This document shows, piece by piece, positions 7,301 to 16,300 of a DNA stretch of 64,000 nucleotides. This DNA is from Bugula neritina (taxonomy: Eukaryota > Bryozoa > Gymnolaemata > Cheilostomatida > Bugulidae), in assembly GCA_964035545.1 (NCBI GenBank), contig OZ037765.1, positions 25,804,504 to 25,868,503 of the forward strand. The letters are read 5' to 3'. Below the pieces are notes generated by a model. The model did no database searches and was not told where the DNA came from. It saw only the letters and a program-made list of their open reading frames with translations. A program made the translations under genes and the position numbers. Position 1 is the first letter of the stretch; each line of letters begins with the position of its first letter.

Positions 7301-10300
7301 CAAAAGAATAGAGTAAGTTCAAAAGTATCAGCTAGACAGTCATTCTGCTTCAAATGACAACAATACAACATAACTACAACTAAAGAATACACACCATCAT
7401 TTTAAATGAATAGAGATTTTCTAATATCAAATATTAGGCTACCTGAGGGTAGAGCTGCAGACATGGTTGGATAACTTCCTCTGAAGCAGTTATATCCCCT
7501 TCCCCGGTACCTGCGTAGTAAGAGCAGATAAAATATACATGTATGTATGTATAACTTTCCAATGTCTTTTGTCTCCTCACAATTCAAAGAGTCAGCTTAC
7601 AATGCTATATATTTACACGACATTACAAAAGGAAAAAATCTCTACACAACCAATCTCATACGGGTATTTATGGCCTCTCCCTGTGTCAATACGATAAAAT
7701 ATTACTTATCAGTTTAGGGAGTGTTGGCTAGTAGTTGTTTTGCTAGTATCAACTTCTATCAAGTGATACACCATTTACACACTATTACAGAAACCCTCTA
7801 AACCCAGAGAACATATTATTGTTGATTGTTATTTTTGAAAAAGACTTTCCTAGTGAATTGTAAGGATATACCAAGGTTCATAGTTTATATTCATTGTTTT
7901 CTTGCCAGCCACTTTTGTTTTAGTAATGTGTTTGTAGATTACACAAACTACGTTAATAGTAAGTAGTCCATCAGAAAAATAGGAAAAGTAAAGGTTTCAA
8001 AATATTAAATAGCAAAATATTGAAACTATTTATTTCAATTCACAAAATTTACTTTTTTTATACAACTAAAAAAATTCTAATAAGATTTTTGAAGACACTT
8101 CTTTCACCACTAGTTTTTCATTATTAATTGCAGCAAATATTTGACTATGACTGTGAGCTTTTCAAAAAGTTGAGAATATATTCTCATCTCCACAAACTTG
8201 TTAAAATGATGAATATTTAAATTTCAACTTTGAGTGTTTATTTGAATAGTCAACCAATTTTAGAAACTTGAATAGAACTGTTGTGGTTAAAAGCACGGTT
8301 GTAAATGAATGCTATTTCAGTGTGGTTTACTATTTGTAGAAAATGGAACTTAGGACTGAAAGTCAACGAAAGGAGTTCAAGGCTAAGCTAACAAAACAAA
8401 TTATAGCTTCAGGTACTAAAATACAACTACAGCTTCATGAATATGACAAGAGTCAACCTTTACATGACATATTAAGTAGATGGAATAATCCACAGGGACG
8501 AAACTTCCTTATGTTGGCAATTATTCACGAGAAAAAAGAAGCAGTGTATGATATTCTCGATATTTTAAATCTTGGTGCTACTGATTATGGATTTTGGACG
8601 AAAGAAGACTTTGTAAAATTCCTATGTATGACAGACAATGACCGTAACAATGTGTTGCAGCTGGCGCTGCTTTATCAAATCAATAAACAAAGTGATGGAT
8701 TGCTTCAAACCCTGCTAGTTCATGTTGAAGATGGCAGGAGCAAATTGGCAGAGCTAGTCGATAATGAGAACAATGCTAGACAGAAGTCAATAGATATTGC
8801 TTTTAGAGGACGGTGGGATAAGGATGTAATCAATTCTTTATTAGATAAAAGTAATGACTATGACAGAAAAGGTATGATGAGAGCCATAATATTTTACAAT
8901 GATGTGTATGAGAACGAGAGAAATGCACGTTCCCTAGATGAAGCACTCTTTAGCAGAGGGTTTTATGTAGAACATTGGACGCATAAACAGTGGAATGCAG
9001 ATACCCTTCTTGACAAGTTGACAACAAAATGTAAAGAGGGTATGGATCAATTGTGGGTGGTGGGTCTTACTCATGGCGTATACAAGTATATCTTCGATTC
9101 ATCTAGTAAGAAAATCCTGATTGACGATATAGAACAAAAACTTATAAACACCTCTGATGGAGGAAAAGATGTAAGAACTTTTCACATTTACATTTTCATT
9201 AAAAAATCTATAAACTTGACACATCAGTGAAAGCACGGCAGAGAAATAATTTTATTTTAGATTATATTTTAGACACTATTTACTTAAAGTAAATTTAGCA
9301 ATAATTCAAGATGAAGTTTGAAAAAATACAATTTGATTTTCTTTATTCAATTATTCTTCAAAACAAAGCAGTCCAAATAACCAGCAGATTACACATAATT
9401 GCATGAGACCCATTGTCAATTTTTGTTAAAATAGATTTAGTTTTGACATCGTGGAACCCAGAAACTAAACTTTTTATTATTACAATATTGACAACTACAG
9501 TTGAATGTTGCAAATAAGAACAGAAAACTTCCAATGCTGATTCTCACAGTTAGAACTTAAATTATTTGCTATAACCCATTGCTTGTTAATTTCAATACTA
9601 TTTCAACCATTTTTTGAAAAGTTTCCACATCTTGATTACCAGTACATGTGTGCTGAGTCACCAGACGGCAAAGTTGGCCTTTTAAAGAGCATTAATGTTG
9701 TTTTGCACGAATAACAAAATGTTATTTTGCATAAATAACATTTTGTTATTTAACATGAATGTTAAAATCGAATAAGACGATTCTTGAAAACAGTAAAAAC
9801 AATGATTTGGGAGTTAGTCCTCTCAATCTGTAAACAAATTATTGCACAAAAAGCTGAGTTTTGAAGTTTCTTGATAAGCTCTACCAAACTAAAACATTCC
9901 TGACAACTTCATACAAAACAATTATTCTACTAGTTTACAGTGACATATTACTACATATTTCAGATAATCATCATTATTGATGCTTGTCAAGAGAATGAAG
10001 AAGAGGAAGGAGAGGAAGGAGAGAGAGGAGAGGAAGGAGAGAGAGGAGAGGAAAAAGAGAGAGGAGAGAGAGTAGAGGAAGGAGAGAGAGGACAGAGAGT
10101 AGAGGAAGGAGAGAGAGGAGAGGGAGGAGAGGAAAGAGAAAGAGGAGAGGAAAAAGAGGGAGGAGAGAGAGGAGAGGAAGGAGAGAGAGGACAGAGAGTA
10201 GAGGAAGGAGAGAGAGGACAGAGAGGAGAGGAAGGAGAGAGAGTAGAGGAAGGAGAGAGAGGACAGAGAGTAGAGGAAGGAGAGAGAGGACAGAGAGTAG

Positions 10301-13300
10301 AGGAAGGAGAGAGAGTAGAGGAAAGAGAGAGAGGACAGAGAGTAGAGGAAGGAGAGAGAGGACAGAGAGTAGAGGAAGGAGAGAGAGGACAGAGAGTAGA
10401 GGAAGGAGAGAGAGTAGAGGAAAGAGAGAGAGTAGAGGAAGGAGAGAGAGAACAGAGAGGAGAGAGAGGACAGAGAGGAGAGGAAGTTGAAAGAGAAAGA
10501 GAAGAGGAAAATGAGGAAGAAAGCCCAGAAAACCTTTCCATAACACCAAATAAAAAGCTAGCAACCCCTTCACAACCCCGAACAGTACATCTTCTCATTA
10601 CAAGTAGCAAAGGCGAACAAGCATGGGGAGAGAATTTCATTACACCTCTTGTTAAACACTTGAATGATGGTGAAACAGATGTATGGACAATTCTCAGAAG
10701 TGCATCAAATGACGCTCAAACATTATCTGCTTCAAAAAAACATGAAAAGAGCACACACACAATCCAGTTTCCAACATCTCTAGAGGAAGGAGACATAACA
10801 TTGCCACCACCAATAGCTCACACACAAAACTGATTTTCTGCCTTCCGTTTGACACAGTCAACTGAACTTATATATCTCAAGTATAAGTGCTACTTGTGCT
10901 TACACTATTGCTAGTTGAGCTAGTGCTAACAACATACTAAATTTATCTTGTGTTCTACTTGTGTTAGATTATAGCTAGCAATATGGTGAGTTTAGTGACT
11001 AAGTAACTGCAAGAGCTTTGAAAGACTCAACACATTCCCTTATCAAACACAGAGTTCTGCTGATCAACTTATTATAAATATGAAGAAAAACAGAAGTAAA
11101 TATGATTTGAAAAGCTGCTATTCCAGAGAACCTGAAGTACACATACAGAAATAAATTTTAAATAGATATAAGCTACACTGCATTGAAAGAATAAAAATTT
11201 TAATCTAAACATTGTTGATGAAGATACATCAAAACATAATGTTATGCTTATACAGGCATTTATTCAAGTTCCTGCTTTATATTAGACATTATGATGACTT
11301 TTAATTTAGTACTATTTATAATTTACTAAATTGTTTAATTATAGAAAAACATAGTATTTATATTGAAATATCATATTTGAAAATAAAAAAGTCTGTATTA
11401 TGACTAGTGAGTTGTGTATTCATTATACTCTTGGATAAAAGCAAAAGTATAAAGATGCAGTGAAAAGAAATTAAAAGTAAAGTCTTAAAAAAAGTAGAAG
11501 CATAATAATTTGATGGTATTTAAATTAAATTACTGTTTGCAATAAGATACAAGTTGATTGTAGATATTTAAACTGCTTAGATTTGATTTAAAAATAATAT
11601 ACTTTTTTTTCCAGCCGTAGAAGTAACAATGCCTGCTAGTTTTACTATAAACTATAGCTTTGTAAAAATTCCACAAGATATCAAACTGTTATTATTACTG
11701 CTTTTAGCACTCATAGTAGTTGAAAATCCCAGTGATGGCTGATTTTGTGATGGTTTATATCTTCCTATTTATTTTTAAGCAATCCCATGTACATCAACAT
11801 AACCAGTGGCATGACATAGGCATTGAACATGAATATGGGCTTGCAGCAAGTTGACACACTACAGTATTCACCTATCACTTGTCTAGTCATGTAGGACATA
11901 CTTGTTAATAAATATCAGTGTGTGGCACTGTTACAGGCAGCTGAATTATTAAAGTAACAACAGAGTTACACTAGCAGCAAATCTCACTGAACCAAAACTT
12001 ATCAAGTTGAGAAAATATGATCTGCTGAATTATTTTGCAAATTATAACATATTTTGTGTGAAAAATTTTTACTGAAAGATGCTTCAACCCAAGCAAAGGT
12101 TTAACCTCGTAACAAACCAAACTCCACATATTTAATTCAGCATTATACTGGTCAGGCTCACTGAGACACTCATGTTAATAGTTTAGCATACTAACTTACA
12201 TATAATGTTAGATTCTATCCTGGAGCATCGTGAGACTTGGATCTGTTTGATTTACTTATTCCGACACCATTTCACAACTTTTGTTCGAAGAAGTCAAATT
12301 CATTTATTCTAAAATTAACTTGCGGATGCTGAAATTCCAAAGACCACTCAGGACTTACCCAATATATAAGTTACCATCGTGTTGTATCCCAGGAGAATCA
12401 AGGAACAGAGCGGACCTCTTAGAGAATGAATTTTATCAGCACCTATTCTCAGCTCACTCAAACCTAAACTCTACAAGCAAACATGCTGTGACTAAATAAT
12501 TCTCATGTACAGTTCAGTTTTGGTCAGCATTTTGTTTAATTCCAATAACTGAAATATAAGTCCAGACAACTAAACACCATTCCACATTCTCTGATCACAT
12601 TTTATTTTAAAAACTACATGAATAATTTCATCAGTTTTTGAACACAGTCACGTCAACTGTTCATCACCCAATGCAGGACATTTAAAAGCAATTGGTGAAT
12701 AAGATTAACTTTTTATTATAAATATCAGGCAAGTATATAGTTGCCATGAGAAACCCCCTGATGGAAGGAGTTTCATTTAAAGCAGGCTAAGGAGCACATG
12801 AGCATTTATGACTGGATGCTTTTTCTACCATCACCAATGACCTTTACTGGGAATGGAACCCATGGCTATGGGCTTACCAAGCCAGCGCTCTAACCTCTAG
12901 ACCACAATTGCTCCCATTGACTTTCTAGTACTATACTGTCATGATAATCTAACTGTTCTGTATAACTATGACCATCAGTGGTAATTAATGGAATAAAACT
13001 CACTCTGTTTCCAGAAAATCCAACAAACTCGAGCAGTTTGAGTACTCTAGCCGGCAGCTGTGAGATCATCTACATAATGACAGCAATAATGAGTTTAGAT
13101 ATACAGCTCTTCACAATAACCAAATAATACAATAAATCAGTAGTAGGGTATACCTGAAACTCTACAGAAAAGAACCATCAGGAACAGTTTGGTGGCCATC
13201 GACGTTTGTAGGCAGACAACTGATACTTTTTTTTATCAATATAACAAACTTTAAACAGGCAACAAAAATGTTAACTAAATATACAATACAATATTATACA

Positions 13301-16300
13301 CTATGCTTTTAAAGAGATATTTAATTATTTTTTTCAATCATCAGCTTTAGTTTAGGAATAAAGAATAATGAATAAGTTTAAACAACAAATTAAAACTTGA
13401 TATAACAACTACCTTGTATATTACAGGCAATAAAACTATGGTACTTTATTCTTTAGCAAAATCAATTGCTTACCAGATTGAAAGCTCCTATTCCCATATT
13501 GACACCACTAGAAAAATGCTCATAATCACTAAGAGTTGCCTTATCTCTACTTTCCGCTATTTTACGGCATTCTCTGAAATACAGCAGAAAGTTACTAGTT
13601 ATTGAAATATTACAGATAGTTGTTTCACTTAAAACCTAGTAGAGCAGTAAAGAAGACAATCTGTACTATAGTACTATAGTACGCATTATATTACATACAA
13701 TAAGCATTATATTACATACAGTGAGCATTATATTACATACAGTGAGCACTATATTACATACAGTAAGCACTATATTACATACAATAAGCATTATATTACA
13801 TACAGTGAGCATTATATTACATACAGTAAGCGCTATATTACATACAATAAGCATTATATTACACACAGTGAACATTATATTGGACCAAGTAGAAAATATA
13901 TAGCTAATTAGTTAAATTGAATTGAAAATGTCAGGCAAGGGTGCACACAGCATATTACATACACATACAATGCAGTGTGCTACTGTTTATACATTAAATA
14001 GTGCTTTATGTGTGGAACTAAATATTATAATATTACAAAAATGGTAACCCATTATTCAGCAGCCAAAATCTTACTGTCACTGCCAATACAGGCATTCCAA
14101 TTCAAATCTTATATTTGCTGCTTTTTACTTCTGTTAATATTTAAAAATTACTATTATATCGCATTGTGTGCATTTCCAAAAAAGCATGCACGTCTGTTAA
14201 CTGGCAATGTAGAATTAGATAAACTGTACGGATGGTTATGTAACACACTAGATTAACTTATATACATTAAAGCTGTGACCAGTGCAAGAACACAACTCCT
14301 GGTGTCAGATCCACTCACTTGTACGACTGGTAACAATGCTTGATCTTGAGGGCTCCTTTGAGGAAACTCATCAGATTCTCATCCTGAACAAAACTCAGGA
14401 CAGCTCTGAGAAGGAGAGTCTCCGCAAACACCAGCTCAGCGTGCACTTCAACTGTTGTAAATAAAATATTTTACTAGCAGTTTACTATGCATTCCTCACC
14501 CAACCTTTCAAAATATTTTAGTTTAAATTCATTTGGAAATTACTGTTAAAAGGCAGATCAAATAAGTATTATATCTCTTGGTGACTAACCCTGTCCTGGA
14601 ACATTACTAAAACATTACAAACATGAGATTTCTATTTAATGTCTAACATGTGCTATAAATACACCTAGTACTCACTTTCAGTGTATGTAGAGTATATAAC
14701 TATGTACTCACTGTCAGTGTATGTAGAGTATATAACTATGTACTCACTGTCAGTGTATGTAGAGTATATAACTATGTACTCACTGTCAGTGTATGTAGAG
14801 TATATAACTATGTACTCACTGTCAGTGTATGTAGAGTATATAACTATGTACTCACTGTCAGTGTATGTACAGTATATAACTATGTACTCACTGTCAGTAT
14901 ACGTAGAGTATATAACTATGTACTCACTGTCAGTGTATGTAGAGTATAACTATGTACTCACTGTCAGTGTATGTAGAGTCTATAACTATGTACTCACTGT
15001 CAGTGTATGTAGAGTATATAACTATGTACTCACTGTCAGTGTACGTAGAGTATATAACTATGTACTCACTGTCAGTATACGTAGAGTATATAACTATGTA
15101 CTTTCAGTGTATGTAGAGTATATAACTATGTACTCACTGTCAGTGTATGTAGAGTATATAACTATGTACTCACTGTCAGTGTATGTAGAGTATATAACTA
15201 TGTACTCACTGTCAGTGTATGTAGAGTCTATAACTATGTACTCACTGTCAGTGTATGTACAGTATATAACTATGTACTCACTGTCAGTATACGTAGAGTA
15301 TATAACTATGTACTCACTGTCAGTGTATGTAGAGTATAACTATGTACTCACTGTCAGTGTATGTAGAGTATATAACTATGTACTCACTGTCAGTGTATGT
15401 AGAGTATATAACTATGTACTCACTGTCAGTGTACGTAGAGTATATAACTATGTACTCACTGTCAGTATACGTAGAGTATATAACTATGTACTTTCAGTAT
15501 ACGTAGAGTATATAACTATGTACTCACTGTCAGTGTATGTAGAGTATATAACTATGTACTCACTGTCAGTGTATGTAGAGTATATAACTATGTACTCACT
15601 GTCAGTGTATGTAGAGTCTATAACTATGTACTCACTGTCAGTGTATGTAGAGTATATAACTATGTACTCACTGTCAGTGTATGTAGAGTATATAACTATG
15701 TACTCACTGTCAGTGTATGTAGAGTATATAACTATGTACTCACTGTCAGTGTATGTAGAGTATATAACTATGTACTCACTGTCAGTATACGTAGAGTATA
15801 TAACTATGTACTCACTGTCAGTGTATGTAGAGTATATAACTATGTACTCACTGTCAGTGTATGTAGAGTATATAACTATGTACTCACTGTCAGTGTATGT
15901 AGAGTAGTCAATCTTGTGTGAGATCTGCTTTAGAGTATCATACATGGTGTGCTTCTTCCTCAGAGAATGAGCCAAGTTTATGGACCTCTTAGTAGACTGA
16001 ATAGCAGCTTCTATGTCCGGCTGTTGAATGTTGGATATATTATGAGATGAATGAGCAAAGATTTATAATAATGAAACACAAACATGTTTATAATATTATT
16101 ACAAAGAAATATGAGAAAATATGTTGATATAACAAGAAAATAAATAGCAAGTTTGAACATAAAATGGTTTACATTTACTAGATTTGTTCAGCTCAGCAAA
16201 GTTCAATTATTCTTCAAGCTAAAAGTATCTAAGCTTTTTCCATGTCCTCAAAAGACACACAATAAGGGTTTTCATATTAAAAGTAATGTATGATAAATCT

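Follow-up and report, generated by a model that had tools for sequence, protein, structure and literature searches.

A splice-donor minisatellite across an exon-intron border of TTC39 in the bryozoan Bugula neritina, and its likeness to the mirages of amphioxus

Introner-like elements are repeated sequences that carry splice signals. A second kind of repeat is known from amphioxus, in which tandem repeats spanning exon-intron borders, called mirages, occur in Adh3, the globins BflGb6 and BflGb9, troponin C, and PGBD5; in the parts of these papers available to us, splicing was reported to be undisturbed and length instability was seen (PMC3087553, PMC3902484). Under the Rogers model, an intron is gained when a segment of exon that bears AGGT is multiplied and itself turns into the intron; the available portion of a study of fission yeasts describes an intron lying across multiple tandem copies of an AGGT segment of 24 bp (PMC4974935). 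Here, we compare with these systems an array at the end of a TTC39 exon in Bugula neritina, which had been noticed in a sequence-only reading of the locus. The window, that is, the whole stretch of DNA analysed (64,000 nucleotides), lies on contig C1 (35,640,107 bases), and the genome searched comprised 215,847,546 bases in 295 contigs.

TTC39 is encoded on the minus strand of the window. Six coding exons (17158-17091, 16998-16894, 16654-16579, 16020-15888, 14451-14319, and 13573-13474) were spliced via GT-AG borders, giving 205 residues without a stop, and this product matched Pfam Iml2/TPR_39 (PF10300, 1.6e-45); a search of solved structures with the spliced protein gave no match. The exon that bears the array (15888..16020, 133 bases) is the fourth counted from the start codon used, and was assigned as coding from its GT-AG borders, open frame, and the PF10300 match; its end forms the first unit of the array. 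The first donor GT (15886..15887), presumed to be the one in use by analogy with the IP3 receptor junctions described below, opens an intron of 1436 bases (14452..15887) that is mostly array. From the end of the array, 216 bases lead to the acceptor and the next exon (14319..14451), the join target of the in-phase donors.

Tandem Repeats Finder and unit cutting indicated a 36-bp minisatellite at about 14668-15906 on the minus strand (period 36, 34.8 copies, 95% matches), with 34 full units (thirty of 36 bp, two of 34 bp, and two of 32 bp) and a partial 35th unit. The standard unit consists of 19 exonic-type bases, TACTCTACATACACTGACA, and 17 intronic-type bases, GTGAGTACATAGTTATA, exactly as the sequence-only reading had stated, and unit 1 (15871..15906) lies across the exon-intron border itself. 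The same reading had proposed that a minisatellite multiplied a real splice donor and exon tail about 30 times. The gene, by its PF10300 match, and the border within unit 1 bore this out, and the copy number was corrected to exactly 33 GTGAGTAC donors (GTGAGT), the donor being lost in both 32-bp units. Accordingly, a tandem unit spans the exon-intron border of a real gene, and the splice signal is kept in many units, both of which are characteristic of a mirage.

Eighteen of the 34 full units were identical to unit 1. Compared with unit 1, the thirty units of 36 bp carried 17 differences in the exonic part, stemming from a few inherited variants, and none in the intronic part. Eight unit types were distinguished, in the order AAABAAAACAADBEAAFBGCAAHBEACFBGAAAA. 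A block of the array appears to have been duplicated 11 units apart, because units 12-19 (15229..15510, DBEAAFBG) and units 23-30 (14839..15120, HBEACFBG) follow the same order except at two positions; a run of this kind was reached by 12 of 2000 shuffles. Such a duplication would be compatible with length variation between haplotypes or cells. When a 28-base probe from the unit was searched against the genome with up to three mismatches, all 32 matches fell inside this array, and the reversed probe gave none. RNA folding of the exon end and the first units was no better than that of shuffled sequences (z -0.35).

Next, the reading frame was followed into the array. Donors 1-11 (15887 to 15527), all within 15526..15887 on the minus strand, are reached without a stop and would join the next exon in phase, and the following 22 donors (12-33) all pass a stop. 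The first in-frame stop begins 401 bases past the first donor, at about 15486-15484, within unit 12 (15479..15510), a 32-bp unit in which the donor is lost and the frame shifted. These results agree with the earlier statement that the frame stays open for about 11 units to 15484, and also with the statement that distal donors join the next exon in phase, which holds for ten of them.

Two other repeats were observed in the window. The following TTC39 intron contains, clear of its exon edges, a 21-bp array of 10 copies (13667-13881) in which donor-like motifs occur on both strands (plus, GTAAGC; minus, GTATGT). At 10002-10486, a purine-rich array of the AGAGGAAGGAGAGAG type has several nested periods.

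A genome search with the TTC39 array found related arrays on C1, C3, C5, C6, and C7. The array on C6 lies in NUP205, as indicated by a PDB match (1.2e-9) and two Pfam Nup192 matches (2.3e-4 and 4.7e-3, both below the curated cut-off). This array has a 32-bp unit in about 30 copies, and its host exon ends with CTCTACATACACTGAAG followed by GTGGG. Another donor array in this gene has a 21-bp unit, and three further arrays lie at most 12 bases from an acceptor. The NUP205 array (L009 3527-4491) and the TTC39 array share TATATACTCTACATACACTGA and are up to 83% alike, and the exon tails of the two genes both contain TCTACATACACTGA, though the genes are unrelated. A transfer of the array between them was considered and left as unproven; the likeness was treated as a selected coincidence, because NUP205 was the best match outside the locus in the whole genome.

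Subsequently, an IP3 receptor gene was assembled from a stretch of 8751 bases (L048 and L042), which gave 17 spliced exons with no stop and a protein that matched the solved type 1 receptor with 1112.8 bits. Tandem copies were found downstream of 4 of the 17 donors (exons 2, 9, 11, and 17), or of 3 of 16 when exon 17, whose array had led to the gene, is set aside. With the first donor used, the junctions after exons 2, 9, and 11 aligned without gaps to solved receptors; judged from these alignments, the exon-proximal donor is the one predicted to yield the conserved protein. Short arrays ending about 6-16 bases from an acceptor were also observed (L048 682-759 and 7720-7765; L009 5244-5411 and 6766-6966), and the acceptor side of introns therefore carries repeats as well.

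Frame keeping and border spanning were compared in 16 junction arrays, namely those of TTC39, NUP205 (two), the IP3 receptor (four, including L042), eight others among the 14 donor arrays described below, and L031 from a random sample. An in-frame, stop-free distal donor was present in five of these arrays and in none of the other 11. The usable distal donors numbered 10 of 32 in TTC39, 3 of 29 in NUP205a, 4 of 4 after IP3 receptor exon 11, 2 of 2 after exon 17, and 4 of 9 in L031, where copy numbers of arrays in short fetched stretches, including that of exon 17, are lower bounds. The absence of in-frame distal donors is partly mechanical, because a phase-2 exon end before GTRAGT meets TGA or TAA immediately. 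Exon bases recurred in the downstream copy in most arrays (at least 5 bases in 14 of the 16, at least 10 in 11, and up to 32 of 35), the least being found in L034 (3 bases) and L031 (4 bases). These recurrences indicate that the founding duplication spanned the border.

Genome-wide, three AGGTRAGT motifs in a row were found 3574 times, compared with 95 for the backwards pattern, and single motifs 21087 times, compared with 11998. AGGTYAGT was tried as a non-donor control and rejected, since its triples were themselves over-represented (721 versus 71 reversed; singles, 14318 versus 16811). We read this excess as a class of weaker donors, because one TTC39 exon has GTTAGT as its donor; a repeat-unit bias unrelated to splicing is also possible. 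Tandem TTACAG (17078 versus 544 reversed) was likewise discarded as a test for acceptor arrays, because the donor-like sequence ACAGTA was present in many units, and acceptors and donors were therefore not separated. Among the matches listed (the first 100, uneven over the strands and about seven per array), AGGTRAGT triples defined 14 donor arrays, from which a rough extrapolation gives some 500 arrays of this strict form in the genome.

The repeat units differ from array to array among these 14. The 5' side of each of the 14 was examined. Nine of the 14 arrays among the matches listed (L034, L036, L037, L039, L041, L042, L043, L045, and L046) directly follow an open frame of 111-645 bases; in the remaining five (L035, L038, L040, L044, and L047), 36-63 bases are open and an exon is not evident, although L038, judged by eye, may follow a small one. 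Homology was found for four of the nine exon-end arrays, three by Pfam (immunoglobulin, 9.5e-4, under the curated cut-off; caspase, 1.4e-9; and OATP, 9.7e-7) and the fourth with the IP3 receptor (4e-24). The Pfam search gave nothing for L039, L043, L036, L042, and L045, and sub-threshold matches only for L037. The L039 exon presumably resembles PUF60, and that of L043 we take to resemble a monocarboxylate-type transporter.

Several arrays had peculiar units. The caspase exon of L041 (C1:1612600-1613400) is flanked on both sides by repeat arrays, the upstream units containing copies of the acceptor and the start of the exon (ACAG TTGCTAGCATGGACT) and the downstream units copies of the donor. 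In the units of L034, motifs resembling donors and acceptors are combined (GTAAGTATATATACTAACAG) and accompanied by a branch-point-like TACTAAC, and the units of L040 read TATATTACAG and then GTGAGT; with such combined motifs, the units of both arrays resemble recursive splice sites. Apart from these arrays, most of the kinase matches listed were on small contigs (C11-C289), with many TAA and TAG codons read through and TGA rarely. This pattern is as in organisms that read TAA and TAG as glutamine, and these genes probably belong to a ciliate associated with the animal or living on it.

In a random sample of C1 (20 stretches of 10 kb, 200 kb in total), 16 arrays with a period of at least 14 were found. 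On visual inspection of the 10 arrays left by a stricter filter, which removed a single long array of 7.9 kb (L022), one array (L031 3274) was seen to start at the end of an exon and another (L029) to end near an exon start. The three annotated genes were richer in arrays than this sample, but they had been reached via arrays. These genes contained 19 arrays, or 17 after removal of those that had led to NUP205 and TTC39; the array that had led to the IP3 receptor gene lies beyond the last of the 17 exons and is not one of the 19. Thirteen of the 19 arrays were within 20 bases of an exon edge. When the null model allowed the founding unit to lie across an edge, 11 of 17 were near edges against 6.2 expected (p 0.010). 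By the same null, four of 17 were exactly at donors against 1.76 expected (p 0.086), which is weak, and no excess was found exactly at acceptors (1 of 17 against 1.76 expected, p 0.85). A null that forbids straddling gave a very strong excess and was set aside. Since the excess is weak to moderate under the fairer null, much of the edge pattern may reflect frequent tandem duplication in introns near exons, together with tolerance; a splicing-linked cause is possible.

Taken together, these findings suggest that the TTC39 array is probably a passive intronic minisatellite, or mirage, founded by a tandem duplication across the border, with the first donor in use. A short tandem duplication would have straddled the 3' end of the exon, leaving the exon tail and donor in each unit, and the array would have grown inside the pre-existing intron through slippage and unequal exchange. 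The private unit and the duplicated block would fit such local growth. The spliceosome would pick the exon-proximal donor, with the whole exon behind it, and the copies would leave with the intron; growth across the border would be tolerated because a perfect donor always stays beside the exon. First-donor use at TTC39 is suggested by analogy. Counting against the passive reading are the ten distal in-frame donors, whose core is that of the first donor, the five donor arrays without a clear exon among the 14 in the matches listed, and the excess under the straddling null, which is weak exactly at donors and absent exactly at acceptors.

The sequence-only reading had raised a ladder of isoforms as a possibility, alongside competition for U1 snRNP. 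In such a ladder, distal in-frame donors would be used at useful rates, each unit would add 12 residues, and array length would alter the protein. Donors 2-11 are suited to this, being open, in phase, and of the same donor core as donor 1, and TTC39 alone could make such a ladder; however, donors 12-33 give stops, and the sister arrays do not keep the frame, so that we consider this use of the array unlikely. Judged from the predicted frames and junctions, the ladder is not a general function, because 11 of the 16 arrays have no in-frame distal donor and the three IP3 receptor mirage junctions are insertion-free under first-donor splicing. Alternatively, selection might keep rows of donors that serve as decoys or that draw U1 snRNP towards a weak exon end. 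The graded excess of donor-like triples, larger for AGGTRAGT than for AGGTYAGT, speaks for such a role, but arrays near acceptors and inside introns are likewise common, and within introns the fairer null leaves only a weak excess at donors; this explanation seems decidedly improbable.

It would be extremely improbable that the copies at TTC39 themselves became the intron as in the Rogers model, despite the fission yeast precedent, since the acceptor is 216 bases past the array and all six donor arrays in the three annotated genes end 63-316 bases short of an acceptor; the copies do not supply both donor and acceptor. We regard it as very unlikely that the array arose through misassembly or through insertion of a mobile repeat at the exon end. 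The likeness to the NUP205 array gives a hint of transfer; yet it was selected for as the best match outside the locus, and the TTC39 unit was found nowhere else. Against an artefact, variant units stand in a specific order over 1.24 kb, and the available part of the genome paper reports the assembly at QV 53.7 (PMC11480708).

Beyond the passive mirage at TTC39, a wider reading can be put forward only tentatively, and we hold it to be rather unlikely: the birth of minisatellites in B. neritina would be tied to splice borders. An exon-edge-linked process (co-transcriptional, spliceosome-related, or R-loop-related) would seed duplications there, or selection would keep them; a sizeable share of donors, perhaps at least 1 in 20, would precede a row of near-identical donors, of which the cell would always pick the first.

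The cases found in the literature are from lancelets, and a bryozoan case suggests that the kind is convergent, ancient, or overlooked; overlooking is possible, for example, when repeats are masked before gene study. A literature search of titles and abstract openings, which has partial coverage and is no proof of novelty, returned no paper on such arrays in bryozoans, and word searches in the available main texts of two B. neritina genome papers and a Flustra paper gave no passage on introns or such tandem repeats. Natural rows of the same donor would allow spliceosomal choice between identical 5' splice sites to be studied from cDNA alone. Such arrays would also test the proposal, as given in the available parts of the amphioxus globin work, that arrays feed intron gain. 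In addition, gene predictors may pick wrong donors in them.

Finally, the array was set against the known systems. Like introner-like elements, it is a repeated sequence carrying splice signals; unlike them, the TTC39 unit has no dispersed copies, units differ among the 14 donor arrays, and near-identical copies at other loci were not found, the 32 probe matches all lying here and the NUP205 array being 83% alike at best. As in the Rogers model, at least in the part of that paper available, tandem duplication adds GT and AG sites to a gene; in that model, a new intron arises from the copies, whereas the TTC39 copies lie within an intron whose acceptor is outside the array (PMC4974935). The closest counterparts are the amphioxus mirages. 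Splicing and length instability were tested in amphioxus, according to the available parts of those papers, whereas the B. neritina arrays were characterised from genome sequence. In both animals, as far as these same parts describe, the duplications are minisatellite-like, cover 5' and 3' borders, and keep AG/GT signals in many units, and the unit lengths of the amphioxus Adh3 arrays (10-72 bp) are similar to those in B. neritina. The present arrays differ from what is described there in their bryozoan host, in their greater length (up to about 34 units), and in having been counted genome-wide. Thus, the TTC39 array belongs to a known kind, and what is new, as far as searched, is the host phylum and the scale.
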